64,000 nt of DNA from Novipirellula aureliae (GTDB lineage Bacteria > Planctomycetota > Planctomycetia > Pirellulales > Pirellulaceae): contig NZ_SJPY01000004.1 in the NCBI RefSeq assembly GCF_007860185.1, forward strand, positions 62,001-126,000, given 5' to 3'. The notes under the pieces are model-generated. The model saw nothing but the letters and a program-made list of their open reading frames with translations, was not told the origin of the DNA and made no database searches. The translations under genes and the position numbers were made by a program. Of the stretch, positions 9,725 to 20,219 are shown piece by piece. Positions within the stretch are counted from its first letter, which is position 1. Every line of letters starts with the position of its first letter.

Positions 9725-9767
9725 CTGCCGTGTTAGTGCAGGGTGGTTTTTGTTAAAGTGAATAGCG

Positions 9768-9938
9768 CACCTCCGTAGCCGCGTCTCTCCGAGACGCGAA
9801 CCCGAGGCGCAAACAACCCGCACCTCCGTAGCCGCGTCTCTCCGAGACGCGAACCCGAGGCACAAACAACCCGCATTTCCGTAGCCGCGTCTCTCCGAGA
9901 CGCGAAATCCCCGTGCCTCGGAGAGGCACGGCTACGGA
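9768..9938. repeat. 53-bp tandem repeat carrying dispersed hairpins
   Basis: Two full 53-bp units (9768-9820 and 9821-9873) and a partial third each contain GTAGCCGCGTCTCTCCGAGA followed by CGCG, a hairpin with 7-bp arms. At 9911-9937 an inverted relative (CCGTGCCTC-GGA-GAGGCACGG, then CTACGG) closes the array. The same core occurs at 1165-1328 and 44766-44867. It lies between the secreted protein and the next gene and could form strong RNA structure there. Confidence 0.9.
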
Positions 9939-9977
9939 TCTACCGCTACTCACCAAGAACGAAAGCTAATTTGACTC

Positions 9978-11549
9978 GTGCAAAACGACACCCTTGGATC
10001 GTTACTCGGCCCCGAAGCTGACCCCGTTGCGGCGGGCTGGCGATTGCGTGAAATCGCTGAAAGTAACCAGCACGACGGGGCTGGCCTGATCGCTGAACTG
10101 TTGCAGCAGCCTGGCATCGTGGGCCGCAGTGATCCAGCGATTCTGGGCGGTTTATTGCATTTGATTCACACGCTTTTGATGCGATCCGACACCGGTTTGG
10201 CCAACCTTGATCCGAATCAGGTAGCGCGTCTGCATGACATCCTGCCTGTCGGGGCATCGAATAAACACTTGCTATTGCATCTATTGGCAATGCTTCGAAG
10301 TCAGGAATCGCTTGCGCTTTTGATCGAGAAGATGACGTCATCGCCGCCTCGCAAATGGATCGAAGCGGCTCAGGCAATCAGTCCTCTGATGCAGCATTTG
10401 GATTGGAAGACGAATTGGGTCTTTCCGCAAATACTCGATTGCCTTGAATTCCCCTCGCTTGCCGCTCCGACACTCGATTTGGCCAACTACTTGGTTCGCA
10501 GCGGCGGCGTCGATCCTCATCCGGCTCGCGAAAAACTACCCGTGCTGAATCTGTTGCTCGGTGAAGTCAGCGGCCGGTTGGCTCGTTTCGAAGAAAACCC
10601 TCGCGAATTTGGCGATGATGTAGAAACGGTTCAGGCGACACTTGGTGAGGCGGTCGCATTGGCGGTTTCGTTGTGTGATACGCTTAGCTTGATCGGCGAT
10701 CCCTCGTCGATCGGCAAACTGAACCAAACGATCGATTTGAAACACCGGCGCGTCCAATGCGAGGCCGCCGGAGCACTCGCGAAACTTGGCGACGAAGACG
10801 GAAAAAAACGGTTATTGGAATTGACCAAAGATCCCGCGGCAAGATTAAGAGCGGTTCACTACGCCGACGAACTCGGGTTGGGCGACAGCGTCGACGAATC
10901 GGTCCGCTCCGATACCGCCACGGCGGAGGCGGAAATGTCACTATGGTTGACTCAACCCCAACAGATGGGCGTGCCACCGACATCGGTTGAAGTCGTCGAC
11001 ACGCGGCGTCTGCTTTGGCCGAGTTTCACCAACCCGGTTGACGTTCATTTGGTGAGGTTCGAGTATTCGTTTGGCGATAAAACGTACAGTAACGTTGGGA
11101 TGACGGGGCCCGTCGTGTTTGCGATGAGTGCGGATGTGGCGGATATGCCCATTGATGACATCTATGCGATCTACGCAGGCTGGCATGCCGAACACGCCGA
11201 AATCTTCACCGTCGCAGCCGACCAGTTCAATGCGGCTCAGCGGCGAGCGATGGAGCAGTTCGAAAAACATCTCAACCAACTTGGTTATGAATCGATCAAA
11301 CCAGCGTTGTTAGGTTTTTTCTTGGATGAACAAGCGGGCGTCATGACCGCGGAGCGAGATGGGACGGCATGTGTCGTCGTGACCGACGGGCTCGAAACCA
11401 TCGATCAACCAACCGCCGGTCGGCTGCGTCCCTTGAACCCCGGTGATCTGTTTAATCTGTACAAAGGTCGAAAGATGTTGCGAACGTTTAATCCATCAGC
11501 TGGGATTGCCGATTTTAATGAACCGGATGACGCTTCCAATGACGATTAA
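9978..11549 (+). CDS. HEAT-repeat-like protein, first gene of an ESX-like locus
   Basis: A 523-residue soluble protein of unknown function. Residues about 20-300 are almost all helical, with short hydrophobic helices in pairs; the clearest repeat is RVQCEAAGALAKLGDEDGKK near 255-275, typical of HEAT/armadillo scaffolds. Residues about 325-480 form a distinct alpha/beta domain (VDVHLVRFEYSFGDKTYSNV, then VAADQFNAAQRRAMEQFEKH), and the tail is acidic. There is no signal peptide. A GTG at 9978 is the likely start since no ATG lies upstream in frame. Its 3' end overlaps the next gene, followed by the FtsK-like ATPase, so it may be a cytosolic adaptor or chaperone for that machine. This role is inferred from position only. 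Confidence 0.7.
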   Translation: MQNDTLGSLLGPEADPVAAGWRLREIAESNQHDGAGLIAELLQQPGIVGRSDPAILGGLLHLIHTLLMRSDTGLANLDPNQVARLHDILPVGASNKHLLLHLLAMLRSQESLALLIEKMTSSPPRKWIEAAQAISPLMQHLDWKTNWVFPQILDCLEFPSLAAPTLDLANYLVRSGGVDPHPAREKLPVLNLLLGEVSGRLARFEENPREFGDDVETVQATLGEAVALAVSLCDTLSLIGDPSSIGKLNQTIDLKHRRVQCEAAGALAKLGDEDGKKRLLELTKDPAARLRAVHYADELGLGDSVDESVRSDTATAEAEMSLWLTQPQQMGVPPTSVEVVDTRRLLWPSFTNPVDVHLVRFEYSFGDKTYSNVGMTGPVVFAMSADVADMPIDDIYAIYAGWHAEHAEIFTVAADQFNAAQRRAMEQFEKHLNQLGYESIKPALLGFFLDEQAGVMTAERDGTACVVVTDGLETIDQPTAGRLRPLNPGDLFNLYKGRKMLRTFNPSAGIADFNEPDDASNDD

Positions 11550-11787
11550 ACTGGGACCGATTCGGGATGCCGAGAACAAAATCCGGCGAGACTTTATCGA
11601 CTTTGCTAAACTTTGGGCAGAGGTTCGCGAAAGTTGGGTTGATGATCGCAGTCGCCAATTCGAACAAGAGCATCTGTCAAGTCTAGGGCCAAGTTTGAAT
11701 CGTTTCGCATCGGCAATGACAGAATTTTGCGAGGTCATTCGTCGTGCCGACGAGGCACTCGCGGACGATCAACATCGAGATCAATAG
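11527..11787 (+). CDS. Small WXG100-like helical protein
   Basis: An 86-residue protein (82 if ATG 11539 is used) that starts inside the end of the preceding gene, a sign of translational coupling. It is predicted to be two helices around a central turn, with the segment LWAEVRESWVDDRSRQFEQE at 25-44 (counting from 11539). The Trp33-Val-Asp35 followed by Phe41 and then a second helix LNRFASAMTEFCEVIRRADE matches the WXG100/ESAT-6 layout (W-x-G, later aromatic, long second helix), with Asp in place of Gly. WXG100 proteins are secreted as dimers by EccC-type ATPases, and such an ATPase is encoded nine bases downstream. The identification is by pattern and position. Confidence 0.65.
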   Translation: MTLPMTIKLGPIRDAENKIRRDFIDFAKLWAEVRESWVDDRSRQFEQEHLSSLGPSLNRFASAMTEFCEVIRRADEALADDQHRDQ

Positions 11788-11796
11788 ACGAAAACA

Positions 11797-14700
11797 ATGA
11801 CCATGAAAGACGCATCGGTAAGCCCCGCAGGATTGCTCGATCCCGCACGGCAAACGAGGTTGCTCGATGCCCTTCGCCAGCGTTTCGAATCGAGTGTTGC
11901 GGAGCATCGTGCGTTGATCGCCGATCATGCGCGCGCGAGCAAGCGAGAAGCCGAAGAATTTCAATCCATTCAAACAGCCAAAAAGAATGATTGTCGTTTG
12001 CTCCGACGTTCGACGCTTAGCGTTTGGGATGAATCCGAAGAGCAACTCGTTAGTGAGTACGAAACGTTTGCAATCGAGAACCGCAAACAACAATCGGAAC
12101 TTTTGGCTCACTTTCGTCGCAAAGCAGTCAAAGAAAAAGAAGCGATTGAACAAAAAGTGATCTCGCGGTGCCAAGCGATTGGGCACCAATACGAAAAGCA
12201 AAAACATCGGCCGATTGAAACACGTGATCGGGAAATTCAAAAAATCGACGACTCGCTGCAGTCGATTTATTCGACCGTGAGCGAAGCGAGAGAATTGACG
12301 ATCGCCCGACTCGACCATCTACCGCAATCGGACCCATCGGTTACTCCCGAAGGCGAACAGCCGATGACGCTACCCAAATCGGTTGACGAGGCAATCGAGC
12401 AAATCGCCTCGACGACCAAGCGTTGCCGAAACATTGTCGACGAGATGCGCCGCGGTGCAATTTCAAAACTGATCGATTCGTACTTGTTGCCCATTGTCGC
12501 GTTGGTGTTTTGTGTTCTCTGGTCACTGGGCGTCTATTTCTTCGTCCAGGACAAAAAAATACTTTGGGTTCTCACTGGCTTCACGATGATCGCCGTTTTG
12601 GGCTTCGTTGCATACCTGTTGTTAATGTGGCCGGTGAAGAAACAGACACGGCGGTTGTACCCCGTTGCCGAATGGTTATTGGCAGAAGCTGGGAAAAACG
12701 CCGATCGCGCCAAGGCGATTTCAACGAAAATCGCCAAAGATGCCTCTGCCGAATTGGTAAAAAAACGTGATACGCACTTAGCGGCCGCTGCGCAATGGAA
12801 GAACGAGCAATTGACCCAATTGGAGGCTGAGCTCGAAAAGCAACGTGATCAACAGCGAACGGCGCTCGATCAGTCGCTAGCGGAAAAAGATCAATGGTTC
12901 AAGTCCCACTACGCCCAGTTGGCCGAAACCATGCGAGTGAAAGCGGAAGCGGTCGCTGCGGAGATCACGCACAGCTTGGCCTCGACCGAGCAAATGATAT
13001 CGGAAAAGCGGACTCGGTTGGCCGAGTCCCGCTGGCAAGAACGGCGGCGGTTGATGCAGCGACTCGAGCAAGGGGTCCGCCGAGGACTCGCTCGCATCAG
13101 CAAGGCGACCGAATCGGTCGAGCATCGTTTTCCAGCTTGGCAAAATGTTCTTGCTTCGCCCTTGCCAGTCGATCTCAATCGCATCGACTATGTTCCCGTT
13201 GGAACCTTGAGCGTTGGTTCGAGCCTTGATGAAGTGTTGAATGAGCCAAACATCGATAATGATTCGGTTCTTGATTCGATCAGCGATCTATCGATCCCCG
13301 ATTCGTTGCCATTGGTACTGCACCGTCGTTTGCATAGCGGATTGGTCATTACCGCTCCGCCATCGCAACTCGATTCGGCGATCGATTTGGCTCATCAAGT
13401 GCTGTGGCGGTTACTCGCCGGCGCACCACCATCGCGATGCAAACTCACGCTACTCGACCCGCTCGGACGAGGCCAGAACTTTACAGGTTTTATGGCATTA
13501 GCGGATCACGATCCGTCAATCGTTGGCCATCGCGTGTGGACGAGCGATGCACAAATCAATGAGCGATTGGCCGAGCTGTCGCATCATGTCGAAGATGTAT
13601 TGCAGGTCAGTTTACGGGACCGTTTTGAACGGATCGAAGACTACAATGAATTAGCGGGGTCGATGGCGGAACCCTACCGCGCGGTCGCTGCGATCGGTTT
13701 TCCGGAGGGGGTGTCACGCGACGCCTACAAACATCTGTTAGCATTGATTGAAAGTGGCCTGCGCTGCGGCATCTATAGCATTTTGGTTTGCGATTCCTCG
13801 AAGCCATGGCCATCGGACATGCCGATGCCAAAATCGAACAAGATCTTGCAAATCGACATCGATTCCTCAGGCAGGTTTCATGTTGAGAAAGCGGGTTTGT
13901 CCGAGTTGGCGTTTCGTCCCTGTGAACCGCCGACCGACCGGATGCGTTCGCCGCTCGTCGAAAAGATCGGCTTAGCCGCCGTCGCCGCGTCACGAGTCGA
14001 AATTCCCCTCGGTAGTATTCTAAAAGAGGAGGATGCGGCATCGGGTTCGACCAGTGATGGGATCGCGATCGCGGTTGGTAGCCAAGGTGCCAACCGCTCG
14101 ATGTGTTTGGATTTGGGCGAAGGGGTTCGCCAACATGTACTGATCGCTGGGAAAACCGGTTCGGGAAAGAGCACGCTTCTGCATGCGATCATTACATCGG
14201 GCGCCTACCGATACACGCCCGATGAACTTCAGTTTTATCTGCTGGACTTTAAGAAAGGGGTTGAGTTCAAACCGTACGCCGACGCCAGTTTTCCTCACGC
14301 TCGCGTGATTGGCATCGAAAGTGAGCGTGAGTTTGGGCGAAGTGTGTTGCAACGTCTCGATGGCGAATTGCAACTTCGTGGTGAGCAATTCCGTGCCGCT
14401 GGCGTGCAAGAGCTTGGCGAATACCGACGTGCCAGCGGCAATGCGATGCCGCGAATTATGTTGGTCGTCGACGAATTCCAAGAGTTGTTCATGCGCGACG
14501 ATCGATTGGCGGGCGATTGTGCGATGCTGCTCGACCGCTTGGTTCGTCAAGGTCGTTCGTTTGGGATGCACGTGGTACTGAGCAGCCAATCGTTGGCCGG
14601 TGCCTATTCGCTACCTCGAGCAACGCTCGGGCAAATGGCCGTCCGGATTGCGATGCAGTGCAGTGAATCGGATGCCGCTTTGATTCTTGCCGATGACAAC

Positions 14701-15702
14701 ACCGCCGCTCGCTTGATCGCCCGCCCCGGTGAAGCGATCTACAACGACGCAGGTGGTTTGATCGAAGGCAATCAACCATTCCAAGTGGCGTGGCTATCAT
14801 CAGCAGAGCATCGCGAACTGCTTGCGTCCATCGCGGATCGTGATGCGGAGTATGTGAAGTCATTGCCGCCAGCGGTTGTGTTTGAAGGGAACCGTCCATG
14901 CCGTTGGACACCGGCACTGGCCAAGGCGATCTACCCGGCTAATCTTTCTCAGGACAAATCGTTGTACGGACTGCTCGGCGAAGCGGTTGAGATCGGGCCC
15001 CCCGTAGCGATCCGATTAACTCGCGACACAGGCCGAAATGTCTTGATCATCGCGCCACCCGAATCGCGAAGTAGTGTCATCGCAACTTGTATCGCTGGAT
15101 TCCAGCACAGCGACCCGCGTTTAGAACTTGTTTACTACGACGGCAACCGAGTCGATGAAGGAGAAACCTTGAGGCCGTGGCTTGATGAATGCGGGATCGA
15201 TTTCAAGAGCATCAAAATGAGAGATTCGGAAGCTGAATTGGTCCGCATCAGTGAACGGGTGAAATCACGTATGGATGACGAAGCCGACCATTCGCCGCTT
15301 GTCCTCGTGATCGATCCGCTGGAACGGTTCCGTGACCTTCGCCAAGAGGAATCATTCAATTTTTCCCTCGATGCGGCGGCCGGTTCCGTCAGTGGAGCGG
15401 CGGCACTCCAGCAGGTGCTTCGCGACGGACCAGCGGTGAATGTGTTTTGCATCGTTGTTTGTGGATCGACCGAGACGTTGTCACGTTGGTTGCCCCGGGC
15501 CAACCAACATGATCTGGAACTGCGGATTCTAGGACGAATGAACGCGTCCGATTCGTCGCTATTAATCGACACACCCATCGCAGCAGAGTTGTCGGCGGCA
15601 ACCATGCTCTCTTACGATGATACGGATGGTCGAATCGCCAAATTCCGTCAGTGTGATTTGCCAGATGCCAAAGTGGTCCGCCAGTGGCTCGAAAACCGAT
15701 AG
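11797..15702 (+). CDS. Membrane FtsK/SpoIIIE (EccC-like) ATPase
   Basis: A 1,301-residue protein. Residues about 25-190 are coiled coil; two membrane helices follow at about 229-247 and 255-277; a second coiled coil runs over about 300-450. The rest holds three RecA-like units: a degenerate one at about 510-740 (LVITAPPSQ in place of a P-loop), a complete one with Walker A GKTGSGKST at 785-793 and Walker B LVVDEF around Asp892-Glu893, and a degenerate one from about 1078 (LIIAPPESRSS; LVLVIDPLERF). Three tandem ATPase units after two membrane helices is the plan of EccC/EssC, the motor of type VII secretion, rather than of FtsK, which has one and a DNA-binding gamma domain. It is nine bases after the WXG100-like gene. 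A chromosome or DNA translocase is the alternative. Confidence 0.8.
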   Translation: MTMKDASVSPAGLLDPARQTRLLDALRQRFESSVAEHRALIADHARASKREAEEFQSIQTAKKNDCRLLRRSTLSVWDESEEQLVSEYETFAIENRKQQSELLAHFRRKAVKEKEAIEQKVISRCQAIGHQYEKQKHRPIETRDREIQKIDDSLQSIYSTVSEARELTIARLDHLPQSDPSVTPEGEQPMTLPKSVDEAIEQIASTTKRCRNIVDEMRRGAISKLIDSYLLPIVALVFCVLWSLGVYFFVQDKKILWVLTGFTMIAVLGFVAYLLLMWPVKKQTRRLYPVAEWLLAEAGKNADRAKAISTKIAKDASAELVKKRDTHLAAAAQWKNEQLTQLEAELEKQRDQQRTALDQSLAEKDQWFKSHYAQLAETMRVKAEAVAAEITHSLASTEQMISEKRTRLAESRWQERRRLMQRLEQGVRRGLARISKATESVEHRFPAWQNVLASPLPVDLNRIDYVPVGTLSVGSSLDEVLNEPNIDNDSVLDSISDLSIPDSLPLVLHRRLHSGLVITAPPSQLDSAIDLAHQVLWRLLAGAPPSRCKLTLLDPLGRGQNFTGFMALADHDPSIVGHRVWTSDAQINERLAELSHHVEDVLQVSLRDRFERIEDYNELAGSMAEPYRAVAAIGFPEGVSRDAYKHLLALIESGLRCGIYSILVCDSSKPWPSDMPMPKSNKILQIDIDSSGRFHVEKAGLSELAFRPCEPPTDRMRSPLVEKIGLAAVAASRVEIPLGSILKEEDAASGSTSDGIAIAVGSQGANRSMCLDLGEGVRQHVLIAGKTGSGKSTLLHAIITSGAYRYTPDELQFYLLDFKKGVEFKPYADASFPHARVIGIESEREFGRSVLQRLDGELQLRGEQFRAAGVQELGEYRRASGNAMPRIMLVVDEFQELFMRDDRLAGDCAMLLDRLVRQGRSFGMHVVLSSQSLAGAYSLPRATLGQMAVRIAMQCSESDAALILADDNTAARLIARPGEAIYNDAGGLIEGNQPFQVAWLSSAEHRELLASIADRDAEYVKSLPPAVVFEGNRPCRWTPALAKAIYPANLSQDKSLYGLLGEAVEIGPPVAIRLTRDTGRNVLIIAPPESRSSVIATCIAGFQHSDPRLELVYYDGNRVDEGETLRPWLDECGIDFKSIKMRDSEAELVRISERVKSRMDDEADHSPLVLVIDPLERFRDLRQEESFNFSLDAAAGSVSGAAALQQVLRDGPAVNVFCIVVCGSTETLSRWLPRANQHDLELRILGRMNASDSSLLIDTPIAAELSAATMLSYDDTDGRIAKFRQCDLPDAKVVRQWLENR

Positions 15703-16032
15703 CAGAGGTCGTCAAGACGAACGCTCACGGAATGGAATCGGCAAACAATGCACGGCAAGATGGGCTCGACAAAATCATTCCGCTAAACTTTTGTCTTGCA
15801 TTTCCTGCCTTTCCAAATGTGTTCTTTTGCCTAACCCGGAAACCAGGCGAGGTTCCTAAATCGGTTCTTTTGTTACCCCGTTTATCCGATACAGCCGTTG
15901 TTTTTCAAGCTGCCTAAGCGAGAGACAACAATCCGTGCAGCCATTCGGTTCGCGAGGACTAATTGCGACGTAGGGTTACGTTGGAGCGTCACGCTCTTTC
16001 CCAACCCTGAGTTATCAATCAAAGCCACGCTT
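15703..16032. other. Intergenic region before the J-domain gene
   Basis: About 330 bp with no supported gene. A small hairpin, GAGCGT-C-ACGCTC, lies at 15984-15996 and is followed by TTTCC, but this is too short to be a convincing terminator. An open frame enters the region upstream of 16033 but has no start signal or domain. Confidence 0.5.
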
Positions 16033-16569
16033 ATGTCGTCCCAAGAATTTGTGGACCATTACGAAGTGCTCGAAATCAGTCCGAACGCCAATTTGGCAAC
16101 GATCGAAAGAGTGTTTCGCTATTTGGCGAAAAAGTATCATCCGGATATCAACGAGGATCACGACGCTAGCCACTTCACCCGGTTGGTGGATGCATTCGAG
16201 ACGCTTCGCGAACCGGAAGCCCGCAAGGCATACGACGTTTCCCACCAACGGCATCAACAGGTCCAAGTCGAGCTTGTCGAAGGAGCCAATGCCGCAAGCG
16301 ACGACTGTTTAGAACGATACAAATTGTTGTCGCTTCTTTACGCCCAGCGAAGACGAAATTTCCAGAAGCCTGGGATCGGCTTGGGAACTCTGGAAACATT
16401 GGTCCCCTACACGCCCGAAGTGGTTCAGTTTCATATCTGGTATTTTCGCGAAAAAGGTTGGATCGGTCGCGAAGAGTGTGGCCAGTTGTCGATCACAGCT
16501 GCGGGCGTCGATTATATCGAAGCGTTCAACCAACCCACGGTCTCCGACCAATTGCGGTCAGAAAAATAG
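16033..16569 (+). CDS. J-domain protein with C-terminal winged-helix-like part
   Basis: A 178-residue protein. Residues 6-75 are a J domain, with DHYEVLEISPNANLATIERV, the invariant HPD in KKYHPDINEDHD, and FTRLVDAFETLREPEARKAYD; J domains stimulate Hsp70 (DnaK) ATP hydrolysis. The G/F, zinc-finger and substrate domains of full DnaJ are missing. Instead, residues about 100-170 read like a winged helix (LLYAQRRRNFQKPG, VVQFHIWYFREKGWIGREE, QLSITAAGVDYIEAF). The ATG at 16033 begins right at the J domain, while the open frame upstream to 15898 has no likely signal. It may bring DnaK to a specific client or to nucleic acid; no partner is adjacent. Confidence 0.8.
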   Translation: MSSQEFVDHYEVLEISPNANLATIERVFRYLAKKYHPDINEDHDASHFTRLVDAFETLREPEARKAYDVSHQRHQQVQVELVEGANAASDDCLERYKLLSLLYAQRRRNFQKPGIGLGTLETLVPYTPEVVQFHIWYFREKGWIGREECGQLSITAAGVDYIEAFNQPTVSDQLRSEK

Positions 16570-18434: not shown

Positions 18435-18611
18435 TTCCATTTTTTATACCGTTGCATTTGACGGCAACGAAGCCGTTGCAGGCTAGCTAACCGGCAAAGT
18501 TGACGGAAAACATTCAACCGGAACGACCGGAAAAGCCGAAAGAGGTTTGTAGGGACGCTTGCGCCTCCAATCCAAACCTTTTGCTTGATCCATTTGCTGG
18601 AAAACAACGCG

Positions 18612-20219
18612 ATGAGACTCCCATCGGTCCACTGCAGCCACCCATTGCTCCTGAAACTTGCCATCTTTGCTAGCGTTATGGCCAATCCATTGGTGGTCAG
18701 CGGCCAGGTTCGTACGAAGAAACCGGATCGTGGCGTCTACCGACCTCCGGTGGTCATGGCGGATGATGGCTTTTTCGAGGTCGCGACAGAGGAAGAGGAG
18801 TCCGCAACGGGGCCCGAACGAGTGACCGATGCGGTCGCTCGTCCTTCGCTCGTGCCTCGAAATGCAGTCGTCAAGCAGGTTGCCTACGAAACGGATTCCG
18901 AGCCAATCGATTCGAGGGAGGCCTATTTGAACGATGCGTATTCGGGCGATGTGTATTCGGGCGATGCCTATTCGGGCGATGTATATTCGGGCGATGCGTA
19001 TTCGGGCGATGTGTATTCGGGCGATGCGTATTCGGGCGAGCAGGGAGCGATTGCGTATTACGACGAACCTTCATGCGGTCTCGAATCATGTGACTCTCCT
19101 GGGTGTGATTCCCTTTCGTGCAGTGGTTGTTCGCCATGGGCGAATAGCCATTTGGCGTTTAGCTCTGACCGCTGGTTTGGATCGCTGGAATTATTGTTGA
19201 TGTTTCGTAGCGGCGACTATCCGCCGGCACTCCTAACGACTGGCCCTGCGGATGCGGACAACCCAGGTCAGTTGGGAGATCCTGACACAGAAATGTTGGT
19301 AGGTGGCGAAGAGATTCTGGGCGACATGACCGCTGGAGGCCGGTTGACGATCGGCACTTGGCTTGACGATTGCCAATCTCGTTCGCTGGTCGTTCGCGGC
19401 TGGTTGGCTGGAAAGGAATCTTTCAATTACGACGTGGATCAATCGACAACGTCGATCATCACCCGTCCTTTCTTCAACGTCACCACAGGTGAAGTTGCCC
19501 AGCAGGACACTCAGGTCATCGCGACACCTGGGTTCACAACCTTTGGGGCTGCCAACGTCAATGCGTCGAGCGAAGTATACGGAGCGGATTTGTCGATACG
19601 CCAACACTTGTATTCACGATTTGGCGGAACGGTTGATGCGCTCTATGGTTACCAATTCATGCGGATGAACGAAAGTTTGTCGATCTCAAGCACGTCTACC
19701 GCTGGGGCGGATAACCCGTTGCCGCTTGGATCGACGATTGCGGTCTCTGATTCTTTTGATGCAGAGAACGAATTTCATGGCGGCCAATTGGGCTTGGCGA
19801 CACGCTACCGAGAAGGGTGTTGGTCCTTTCGAAGTCTTTGGAAGGTCGCGTTTGGACAACTTTCACGACAAGCAGAACTCGTTGGTAGTACTGCGATAGC
19901 TAACGGCCCTGTCGTGACGGAGCCCAACGGATTGTTGGTCCGTAGCACGAATGCGGGCACAACGACCGATCACACGTTTAGCTGGGTCCCCGAATTGGAC
20001 CTGTCACTTGGTTGGCATCAATTTCCGAATTTCGATGTCACGTTTGGCTATCACGTGATTGCGATGACCGACGCGATTCAGGCATCAGGATTGATTGACC
20101 CTGAATTGGCATCGAACTTAGCCACTCCCGTCGAGGATCCACTTCGGCCATCGCTCGAAATGCGAGACAAGACGTTCTACGTTCACGGATTGCACTTCGG
20201 TTTAGCCTACATCTATTGA
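18612..20219 (+). CDS. BBP7-type outer-membrane beta-barrel protein
   Basis: A 535-residue exported protein. A signal peptide covers about 1-32 (LLLKLAIFASVMANPLVVSG). Residues about 105-145 are a tandem DAYSG/DVYSG pentapeptide repeat, then a Cys-rich segment (CDSPGCDSLSCSGCSPW). From about 160 the barrel starts: WFGSLELLLMFRSGDYPPAL, the glycine-rich GGRLTIGTWLDD, GVVDALYGYQFMRM-like turns and the final strand LHFGLAYIY. This is the planctomycete BBP7 family (putative beta-barrel porin 7) of unknown transport role. The paralogue at 47144-48598 has the same domain order. ATG 18612 was chosen over 18585 because it directly precedes the signal peptide. It is transcribed alone. Confidence 0.8.
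   Translation: MRLPSVHCSHPLLLKLAIFASVMANPLVVSGQVRTKKPDRGVYRPPVVMADDGFFEVATEEEESATGPERVTDAVARPSLVPRNAVVKQVAYETDSEPIDSREAYLNDAYSGDVYSGDAYSGDVYSGDAYSGDVYSGDAYSGEQGAIAYYDEPSCGLESCDSPGCDSLSCSGCSPWANSHLAFSSDRWFGSLELLLMFRSGDYPPALLTTGPADADNPGQLGDPDTEMLVGGEEILGDMTAGGRLTIGTWLDDCQSRSLVVRGWLAGKESFNYDVDQSTTSIITRPFFNVTTGEVAQQDTQVIATPGFTTFGAANVNASSEVYGADLSIRQHLYSRFGGTVDALYGYQFMRMNESLSISSTSTAGADNPLPLGSTIAVSDSFDAENEFHGGQLGLATRYREGCWSFRSLWKVAFGQLSRQAELVGSTAIANGPVVTEPNGLLVRSTNAGTTTDHTFSWVPELDLSLGWHQFPNFDVTFGYHVIAMTDAIQASGLIDPELASNLATPVEDPLRPSLEMRDKTFYVHGLHFGLAYIY
18934..19038 (+). repeat. 15-bp coding tandem repeat (DAYSG/DVYSG)
   Basis: Seven 15-bp units encode alternating DAYSG and DVYSG pentapeptides within the first BBP7 gene, just after the signal peptide and linker. 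The near-identity of the DNA, with few synonymous changes, points to recent expansion by slippage and a length that may vary between strains. Confidence 0.85.

Follow-up and report, generated by a model that had tools for sequence, protein, structure and literature searches.

Type VII secretion and the planctomycete locus

Type VII secretion has been described as a system of Gram-positive bacteria and mycobacteria. The EccC and EssC ATPases of these systems have two transmembrane helices, and the ubiquitin-like protein YukD/EsaB is almost universal in type VII secretion systems (T7SSs). A locus with comparable components is found in the planctomycete Novipirellula aureliae, within a window of 64,000 nucleotides (contig NZ_SJPY01000004.1, positions 62,001 to 126,000) that was analyzed computationally. 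Three tightly packed genes on the same strand (window positions 9978–15702) encode, in order, a HEAT-like protein, a small protein termed c1 and a membrane ATPase termed c0. The window probably holds the motor and one WXG100-related partner of a reduced and dispersed type VII-like exporter in a diderm phylum, for which export is predicted. Two further proteins, termed c2 and c3, are likely partners, as they are co-inherited with the motor in the relatives examined, although scattered over loci.

The EccC/EssC orthologues of T7SSa through T7SSj are described as containing four NTPase units (PMC11217815). In T7SSb, according to PMC9600955, Lap1, Lap2 and an LXG protein form a heterotrimeric presecretion complex. 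In Helicobacter pylori, HP0062 carries WRD in place of WXG and forms a dimer (PMC3397514); its gene is placed in a cluster with an FtsK/SpoIIIE gene, and HP0062/HP0066 are presented as part of a “minimal set” of T7SS (PMC4978471). WXG100 proteins were reported almost only from Actinobacteria and Firmicutes, with a few from Chloroflexi (Poulsen et al., PMC3935865). One review lists WXG100 proteins together with FtsK/SpoIIIE in some Gram-negative bacteria, with function unconfirmed (PMC10765036, citing Sutcliffe 2011 and Unnikrishnan 2017, both of which may include planctomycetes). Because such pairs in Gram-negatives are already in print, the planctomycete set is not a new kind. No paper on a planctomycete type VII system was found in the open-access literature searched, which covered the matches in part and is no proof of absence.

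Affinity and architecture of the ATPase

It is largely supported that the ATPase belongs with EccC/EssC rather than with FtsK. Among NCBIfam models, it scores 116.7 bits against EccCa, 90.5 against EssC, 82.7 against EccCb and 29.4 against FtsK. A profile of its middle unit (unit 2) matches T. curvata EccC in its first ATPase (chain residues 275–462) at 165 bits and FtsK at 56.5 bits, a lead of about 109 bits. A structure model of residues 425–1301, built from 27 sequences (mean predicted local distance difference test score, pLDDT, 86.6; predicted template-modelling score, pTM, 0.68), places EccC/EssC structures at Foldseek ranks 1–8 (4nh0, 5.9e-32) and E. coli FtsK at rank 9 (6.6e-17). The template-modelling score of the whole model is low (0.39), which is read here as a consequence of the units being oriented differently to each other. 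An earlier interpretation of this DNA from its letters alone (hereafter the sequence-only reading) had assigned the ATPase the plan of EccC/EssC. It had named grouping of the ATPase with FtsK, together with failure of the small protein in WXG100 profiles and dimer prediction, as the outcome that would overturn the secretion idea; the ATPase does not group with FtsK, but the small protein of the window, taken alone, fails the Pfam WXG100 model. The NCBIfam scores, the unit 2 profile and Foldseek all favor EccC/EssC, so that the kinship stands, while the plan differs in its number of units (three versus four).

The model contains three alpha/beta units. The motifs GKTGSGKS and VDEF are confined to the middle one and are invariant or nearly so across the 27 sequences (alignment A7), in agreement with the earlier view of three RecA-like units of which only the middle has an intact P-loop. 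Since four units are described for EccC/EssC, one unit is missing from the planctomycete ATPase, and by position this is D3. Units 1 and 3 are labeled D0-like and D2-like by position only, from the order of the units. For unit 1, the Protein Data Bank (PDB) yielded no sequence match at E≤1, and the best PDB matches of unit 3 are alkaline phosphatases at E 0.017 or worse, which are taken as chance. A Pfam search at E≤1 did not find an FHA domain.

Hydropathy agrees with the earlier claim of two membrane helices, and 16 of 17 aligned sequences (A1) have the pair (three segments in one), the exception being a short paralogue at L068. A third, weaker hydropathy window (residues 647–665) lies inside unit 1. 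The positive residues outside both helices, judged by eye, suggest a topology with the N- and C-termini inside. The flanks of the ATPase appear helical from their composition, with 34–35% charged residues and 2–5% proline plus glycine. The L068 paralogue (G023:C3) has 1,059 residues, lacks the transmembrane helices and is preceded, at a distance of about 2 kb, by a separate c3 copy. At L036:4532-6082 (G018:C180), a full-length ATPase gene is followed on the same strand by a second open reading frame (ORF), of 516 residues, that matches the C-terminal portion of the protein.

In addition, the middle unit matches ATPases of defense systems in PADLOC (SspH 1.8e-24, mad8 8.5e-22). These matches are taken as shared FtsK/HerA-type ATPase domains, those of the other proteins are weak, and a role in anti-phage defense was rejected.

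The partner proteins c3, c2 and c1

Judged by its sequence, c3 is a true WXG100 protein of about 89 residues. The Pfam WXG100 model matches 34 of 34 members at E≤1e-3, and the gathering cut-off of PF06013 is passed by all three members scored and by the copy in the window genome. The best solved relative is H. pylori HP0062 (3fx7, 5e-12), followed by EsxB and EsxA. In the window genome, c3 is an 89-residue ORF (L156:8887-9156:-) that scores 130 bits with the c3 family profile. At E≤10, a PF06013 search of this genome gave matches in six places, of which a single one exceeds the cut-off (G000:C6, 39 bits versus 27.3), and 1 of 14 control genomes had a match above it. Next to this c3, which starts 5 nucleotides after it, is a gene of 402 residues (L156:9162-10370) that looks adenylate-kinase-like by eye and is not seen again among the 18 stretches compared.

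The c2 proteins are mostly 160–250 residues long, and the copy in the window genome has 163 (G000:C7:337449-337931, L159:8447-8938; c2 profile 3.8e-38). The c2 model is predicted to be a single long two-helix hairpin (residues 8–77 and 87–164, pLDDT 91). Among the best 60 of its 157 PDB profile matches, most are major histocompatibility complex proteins and coiled coils, with E-values from 0.009 upwards. Both c3 and c2 were found on other contigs than the ATPase and c1, and the window genome therefore has all four parts, in three places. The sequence-only reading took the three-gene locus for the whole system; this has to be revised, as c3 (WXG100) and c2 (long hairpin) appear to belong to it and are encoded elsewhere in the genome. 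In several Phycisphaerales-type loci (L115, L133, L145 and others), c2 is about 340–390 residues long and has an extra C-terminal region, a possible fused cargo or regulator.

The c1 protein is, by profile, WXG100-related. Residues W33 and D35 are invariant in 53 of 53 sequences, forming a W-x-D core. Run at E≤0.01 over the 16,157 ORFs of the loci, the c1 profile retrieves 103 c1 sequences, 68 of 75 c3 sequences and no others, while the reverse search with the c3 profile retrieves 13 of the 103 c1 sequences and no others outside c3. In the PDB, S. aureus EsxA is retrieved with the c1 profile at 2.4e-5, just below the coiled coil of a viral spike (1.8e-5). No stretch of the spike match passes alone, and it was set aside as coiled-coil bias. 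The earlier description of c1 as a WXG100-like small protein is thus borne out by profile, and not by comparison of the single window sequence with Pfam WXG100.

Distribution and co-inheritance

A scan of genome contigs for the ATPase gave 558 confirmed stretches, the best 80 of which were used as named loci. The titles of these 80 are nearly all planctomycetal, with a few given as “bacterium”; L108 and L132 are labeled as metagenome-assembled genomes of Anaerolineae and Thermoflexales. Nearly all related genomes (59 of 60) match the ATPase at E≤1e-3, and 36 of the 60 are counted as positive, with a best match of at most E 4.3e-111. After a wide gap in E come G013 (4.6e-26, residues 19–400, two stops) and then weak matches that probably represent ordinary FtsK. 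In G027 and G036, the ATPase relative is split between contigs. Upstream of the ATPase, neighbor clustering and profile searches yielded three small families, c1, c2 and c3. Where a named locus extends 500 nucleotides or more upstream (n=73), the c1 gene is present in 68 cases (it is absent in L078, L080, L108, L116 and L127). Strong ATPase relatives in 36 of 60 genomes and c1 upstream in 68 of 73 loci place the arrangement beyond chance.

In the 62 named loci that extend 2.2 kb or more upstream, c3 is present in 42, c2 in 44 and all three small genes in 42, and the full set has the order c3-c2-c1-ATPase (42/62). The set is incomplete in 20 of the 62; 11 of these carry the title Rhodopirellula or Rubripirellula, and L070, L074, L079 and L081 are near the window by identity. 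The c2 and c1 genes overlap by exactly 4 nucleotides, with starts chosen by script, in 40 of 79 loci, a set in which named and unnamed loci are mixed and some genomes are counted twice. This overlap fits translational coupling.

Across the 60 genomes, the ATPase, c3 and c2 are found in the identical 36 and in none of the other 24, with one weak c2 match (G057, 7.5e-4) left out. In 8 of these 36 (G000, G001, G002, G008, G012, G015, G017 and G044), c3 is unlinked from the ATPase: in G001 and G008 the two are over 1 Mb apart on one contig, and in the other six they are on different contigs. Close linkage is therefore not the explanation of the co-occurrence. In a phylum sample of 294 genomes, the ATPase is present in 39 (E≤1e-60) and c3 in 40 (E≤1e-6), with 38 genomes shared.

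Other type VII parts

EssB/YukC was not found above the cut-off in any of the 60 genomes, which gave two weak sub-threshold matches (G012 and G027), while the B. subtilis control was positive. A search for EccB also gave no match in the 60 genomes, but its controls were silent too. The membrane parts EccB, EccD, EccE, mycosin and EsaA had earlier been called absent; among membrane parts, absence is supported for EssB/YukC. YukD was ruled out as a part of the system, as it is without association with the ATPase across the 60 genomes (9 of 36 ATPase-positive versus 11 of 24 ATPase-negative genomes; Fisher p=0.10), and none was found in the window genome. YukD-family (ubiquitin-like) genes occur in 20 of the 60 relatives, independently of the ATPase system. 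LXG effectors were considered as cargo and rejected, with no match in the 60 genomes and a positive B. subtilis control.

Layout of the locus and neighboring genes

The same three genes were recovered at the positions given by the sequence-only reading, including the 1,301-residue ATPase, the overlap and the nine-base gap. The overlap between the HEAT gene and c1 is 23 or 11 nucleotides depending on the choice of c1 start, and nine bases separate the c1 stop from the ATPase start. Coordinates are listed in Table 1.

Table 1. Features of the locus, in window positions
Feature	Position	Strand	Basis
HEAT-repeat protein, clade-limited neighbor, not core	9978..11549	+	GTG start, 523 residues; Pfam HEAT_2 8.3e-7
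Small helical protein c1, WXG100-related, W-x-D core	11527..11787 (start 11527 or 11539)	+	
Membrane ATPase c0, EccC/EssC-related, 1,301 residues	11797..15702	+	
Transmembrane helix 1 (residues 230-248)	12484..12540	+	hydropathy
Transmembrane helix 2 (residues 258-276)	12568..12624	+	hydropathy
RecA-like unit 1, without P-loop; EccC D0-like by position only	13174..14022	+	model, motifs
RecA-like unit 2, predicted catalytic, EccC D1 equivalent	14032..14868	+	motifs, profile comparison
Walker A GKTGSGKS (residues 785-792)	14149..14172	+	motif alignment
Walker B region with VDEF (residues 889-894)	14461..14478	+	motif alignment
RecA-like unit 3, degenerate; EccC D2-like by position only	14866..15696	+	model, motifs

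The HEAT gene immediately precedes c1, in the same orientation, in 13 loci including the window, all of them in the clade of the window. A search of the ORFs of 119 loci with the HEAT profile found no other relatives, and the clade members L070, L076, L081 and L087 have different genes at the HEAT position. A protein of 405 residues is encoded just upstream of c1 in some Rhodopirellula-type genomes (L076:6330-7547, L081:6291-7508 and L087:6307-7524). Because the HEAT gene is restricted to 13 loci of a single clade and its 405-residue replacement is unrelated to it by hhalign, it was ruled out as a core part. Its earlier inclusion in a secretion locus is not sustained beyond a clade-limited neighborhood in which some members have it replaced.

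Further features flank the three genes. Near-identical repeat units (cgtagccgcgtctctccgagacgcgaa...) and an inverted copy, seen by eye, lie 5′ of the HEAT gene at 9760–9950. After the ATPase, a DnaJ-domain protein is encoded at 15898–16569 (Pfam 3e-16), for which blast gave no relative at loci L031-L069, and a 544-residue ORF at 18585–20219 contains a tandem YSGDAYSGDV-type repeat.

Proposed mechanism and alternative explanations

The type VII-like exporter is proposed from the computed co-occurrence of the ATPase, c2 and c3, the linkage of c1, the homology of unit 2 to EccC D1, the WXG100 kinship of c3 and c1, and the predicted hairpin of c2; from these we infer complex formation, docking, export, cargo and any outer-membrane route. 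By analogy with Lap1/Lap2-LXG, the nearest precedent for a pair of small WXG100-like proteins joined by a larger helical one, c1, c2 and c3 would form a helical presecretion complex in the cytoplasm. Docking would take place on the degenerate units at either side of the middle one, with the ATPase anchored by its two membrane helices, and may activate that middle unit, the equivalent of EccC D1 and the only one whose Walker motifs are intact. Neither EssB/YukC nor YukD would be needed for the last step, in which ATP hydrolysis would move the complex or a bound cargo across the inner membrane. A stronger version is doubtful at present, namely that of a self-sufficient diderm machine whose three-unit, two-helix ATPase exports a c1-c2-c3 rod and does without the membrane complex known from T7SS, while the genes for the motor, c2 and c3 are co-inherited though scattered. 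If it were true, the missing fourth unit would mean that a different substrate docking site is needed.

Several observations weigh against an exporter. All NCBIfam T7SS scores of the ATPase are far under the curated equivalog cut-offs (EccC 116.7 versus 509 bits; EssC 90.5 versus 778). Single c1 sequences match Pfam WXG100 weakly in 4 of 53 cases (E≤0.01), the window's own c1 has no such match as a single sequence, the hhalign value for c1 versus c3 is only 62%, and c1 is tied to the ATPase set by linkage only. The c2 protein is neither detectably WXG100-like (9.8%), with no clear profile link to c3 or c1, nor LXG-like by the search described above; all of its Foldseek matches are weak, with none at E≤1e-3. 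A YxxxD/E export arm was not seen by eye in the c2 and c3 alignments, and toxin-bearing cargo was not found. One genome of the phylum set has the ATPase only (G276) and two have c3 only (G328 and G336), all three being 72–87% complete, and the Fisher p-values for co-occurrence ignore relatedness. Finally, around the 18 stretches with unlinked c3 or c2 (L156, L159 and L160-L175, three of them from one genus), no other neighbor family, unannotated as these are, is present more than three times, and no membrane or outer-membrane partner emerged.

The ATPase could instead be an FtsK/HerA-type pump for DNA or chromosomes, with the WXG100-like proteins as regulators or adaptors, which might be suspected of the Gram-negative WxG and FtsK pairs located with DNA-processing modules. 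The middle unit does match FtsK (29 bits; Foldseek 6.6e-17) and defense ATPases (SspH, mad8), and PMC4978471 describes a TerY-phosphorylation cluster of H. pylori in which WxG, FtsK and nuclease genes occur together. This explanation is nevertheless improbable, as EccC is ahead of FtsK by about 109 bits and the window genome has a separate gene that appears to encode an ordinary FtsK (G000:C10, a weak match). Moreover, neighbor clusters beyond c1-c3, again unannotated, occur in at most 5 of 40 ATPase stretches and in at most 3 of the 18 unlinked ones, although a DNA-related partner may be among them. Alternatively, the ATPase might remodel helical rods of c2 with c1 or c3 inside the cell, as a non-secretory machine of the envelope or cytoskeleton that serves, for example, planctomycete membrane organization. 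The long hairpin predicted for c2, the extended helical regions suggested by the ATPase composition, and the failure to find toxin cargo or LXG proteins (0/60 genomes) would suit such a machine. On the other hand, EsxA is described as secreted in both T7SSa and T7SSb (PMC11217815), and the patchy presence of the ATPase (36/60) argues against a housekeeping role, making this explanation improbable too and, if anything, slightly more so.

A three-gene unit of HEAT protein, small protein and ATPase, in which the HEAT protein is a working part, is very improbable. The constant position of the HEAT gene in its 13 loci is what speaks for it, but the absence of further HEAT relatives from the 119 loci and the different genes in L070, L076, L081 and L087 largely refute it as a general rule, leaving a possible accessory role within the clade.

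Comparison with known systems

The short parts list of the proposed exporter (a motor, two small WXG100-type proteins and one long hairpin) makes it a defined candidate in environmental planctomycetes. It is therefore testable whether an EccC-type ATPase and WXG100 partners suffice for export in a diderm. In addition, the three-unit motor raises the question of the role of the fourth unit in EccC/EssC.

The planctomycete ATPase resembles EccC/EssC of T7SSa and T7SSb, as well as TsxC of T7SSc-j, in being a membrane ATPase of the FtsK superfamily with two transmembrane helices, tandem RecA-like units, an equivalent of D1 whose Walker motifs are intact, and a WXG100 partner. It differs from EccC/EssC in having three units rather than four, a long helical N-terminus and no FHA match. 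Further differences are that YukD is missing from the window genome and that EssB/YukC is not found above the cut-off in the 60 genomes. The set is similar to Lap1-Lap2-LXG in that two small WXG100-like proteins and a larger helical partner are encoded together; it is unlike Lap1-Lap2-LXG in that the 60 genomes contain no LXG match, no toxin domain was detected, and the c1-c2-c3 complex is a proposed one. The H. pylori HP0062/HP0066 set, as described, likewise joins a WXG100 gene to an FtsK-type gene, and HP0062 is the best solved relative of c3. To this arrangement the planctomycete set adds c1, c2 and, in some genomes, dispersed genes.

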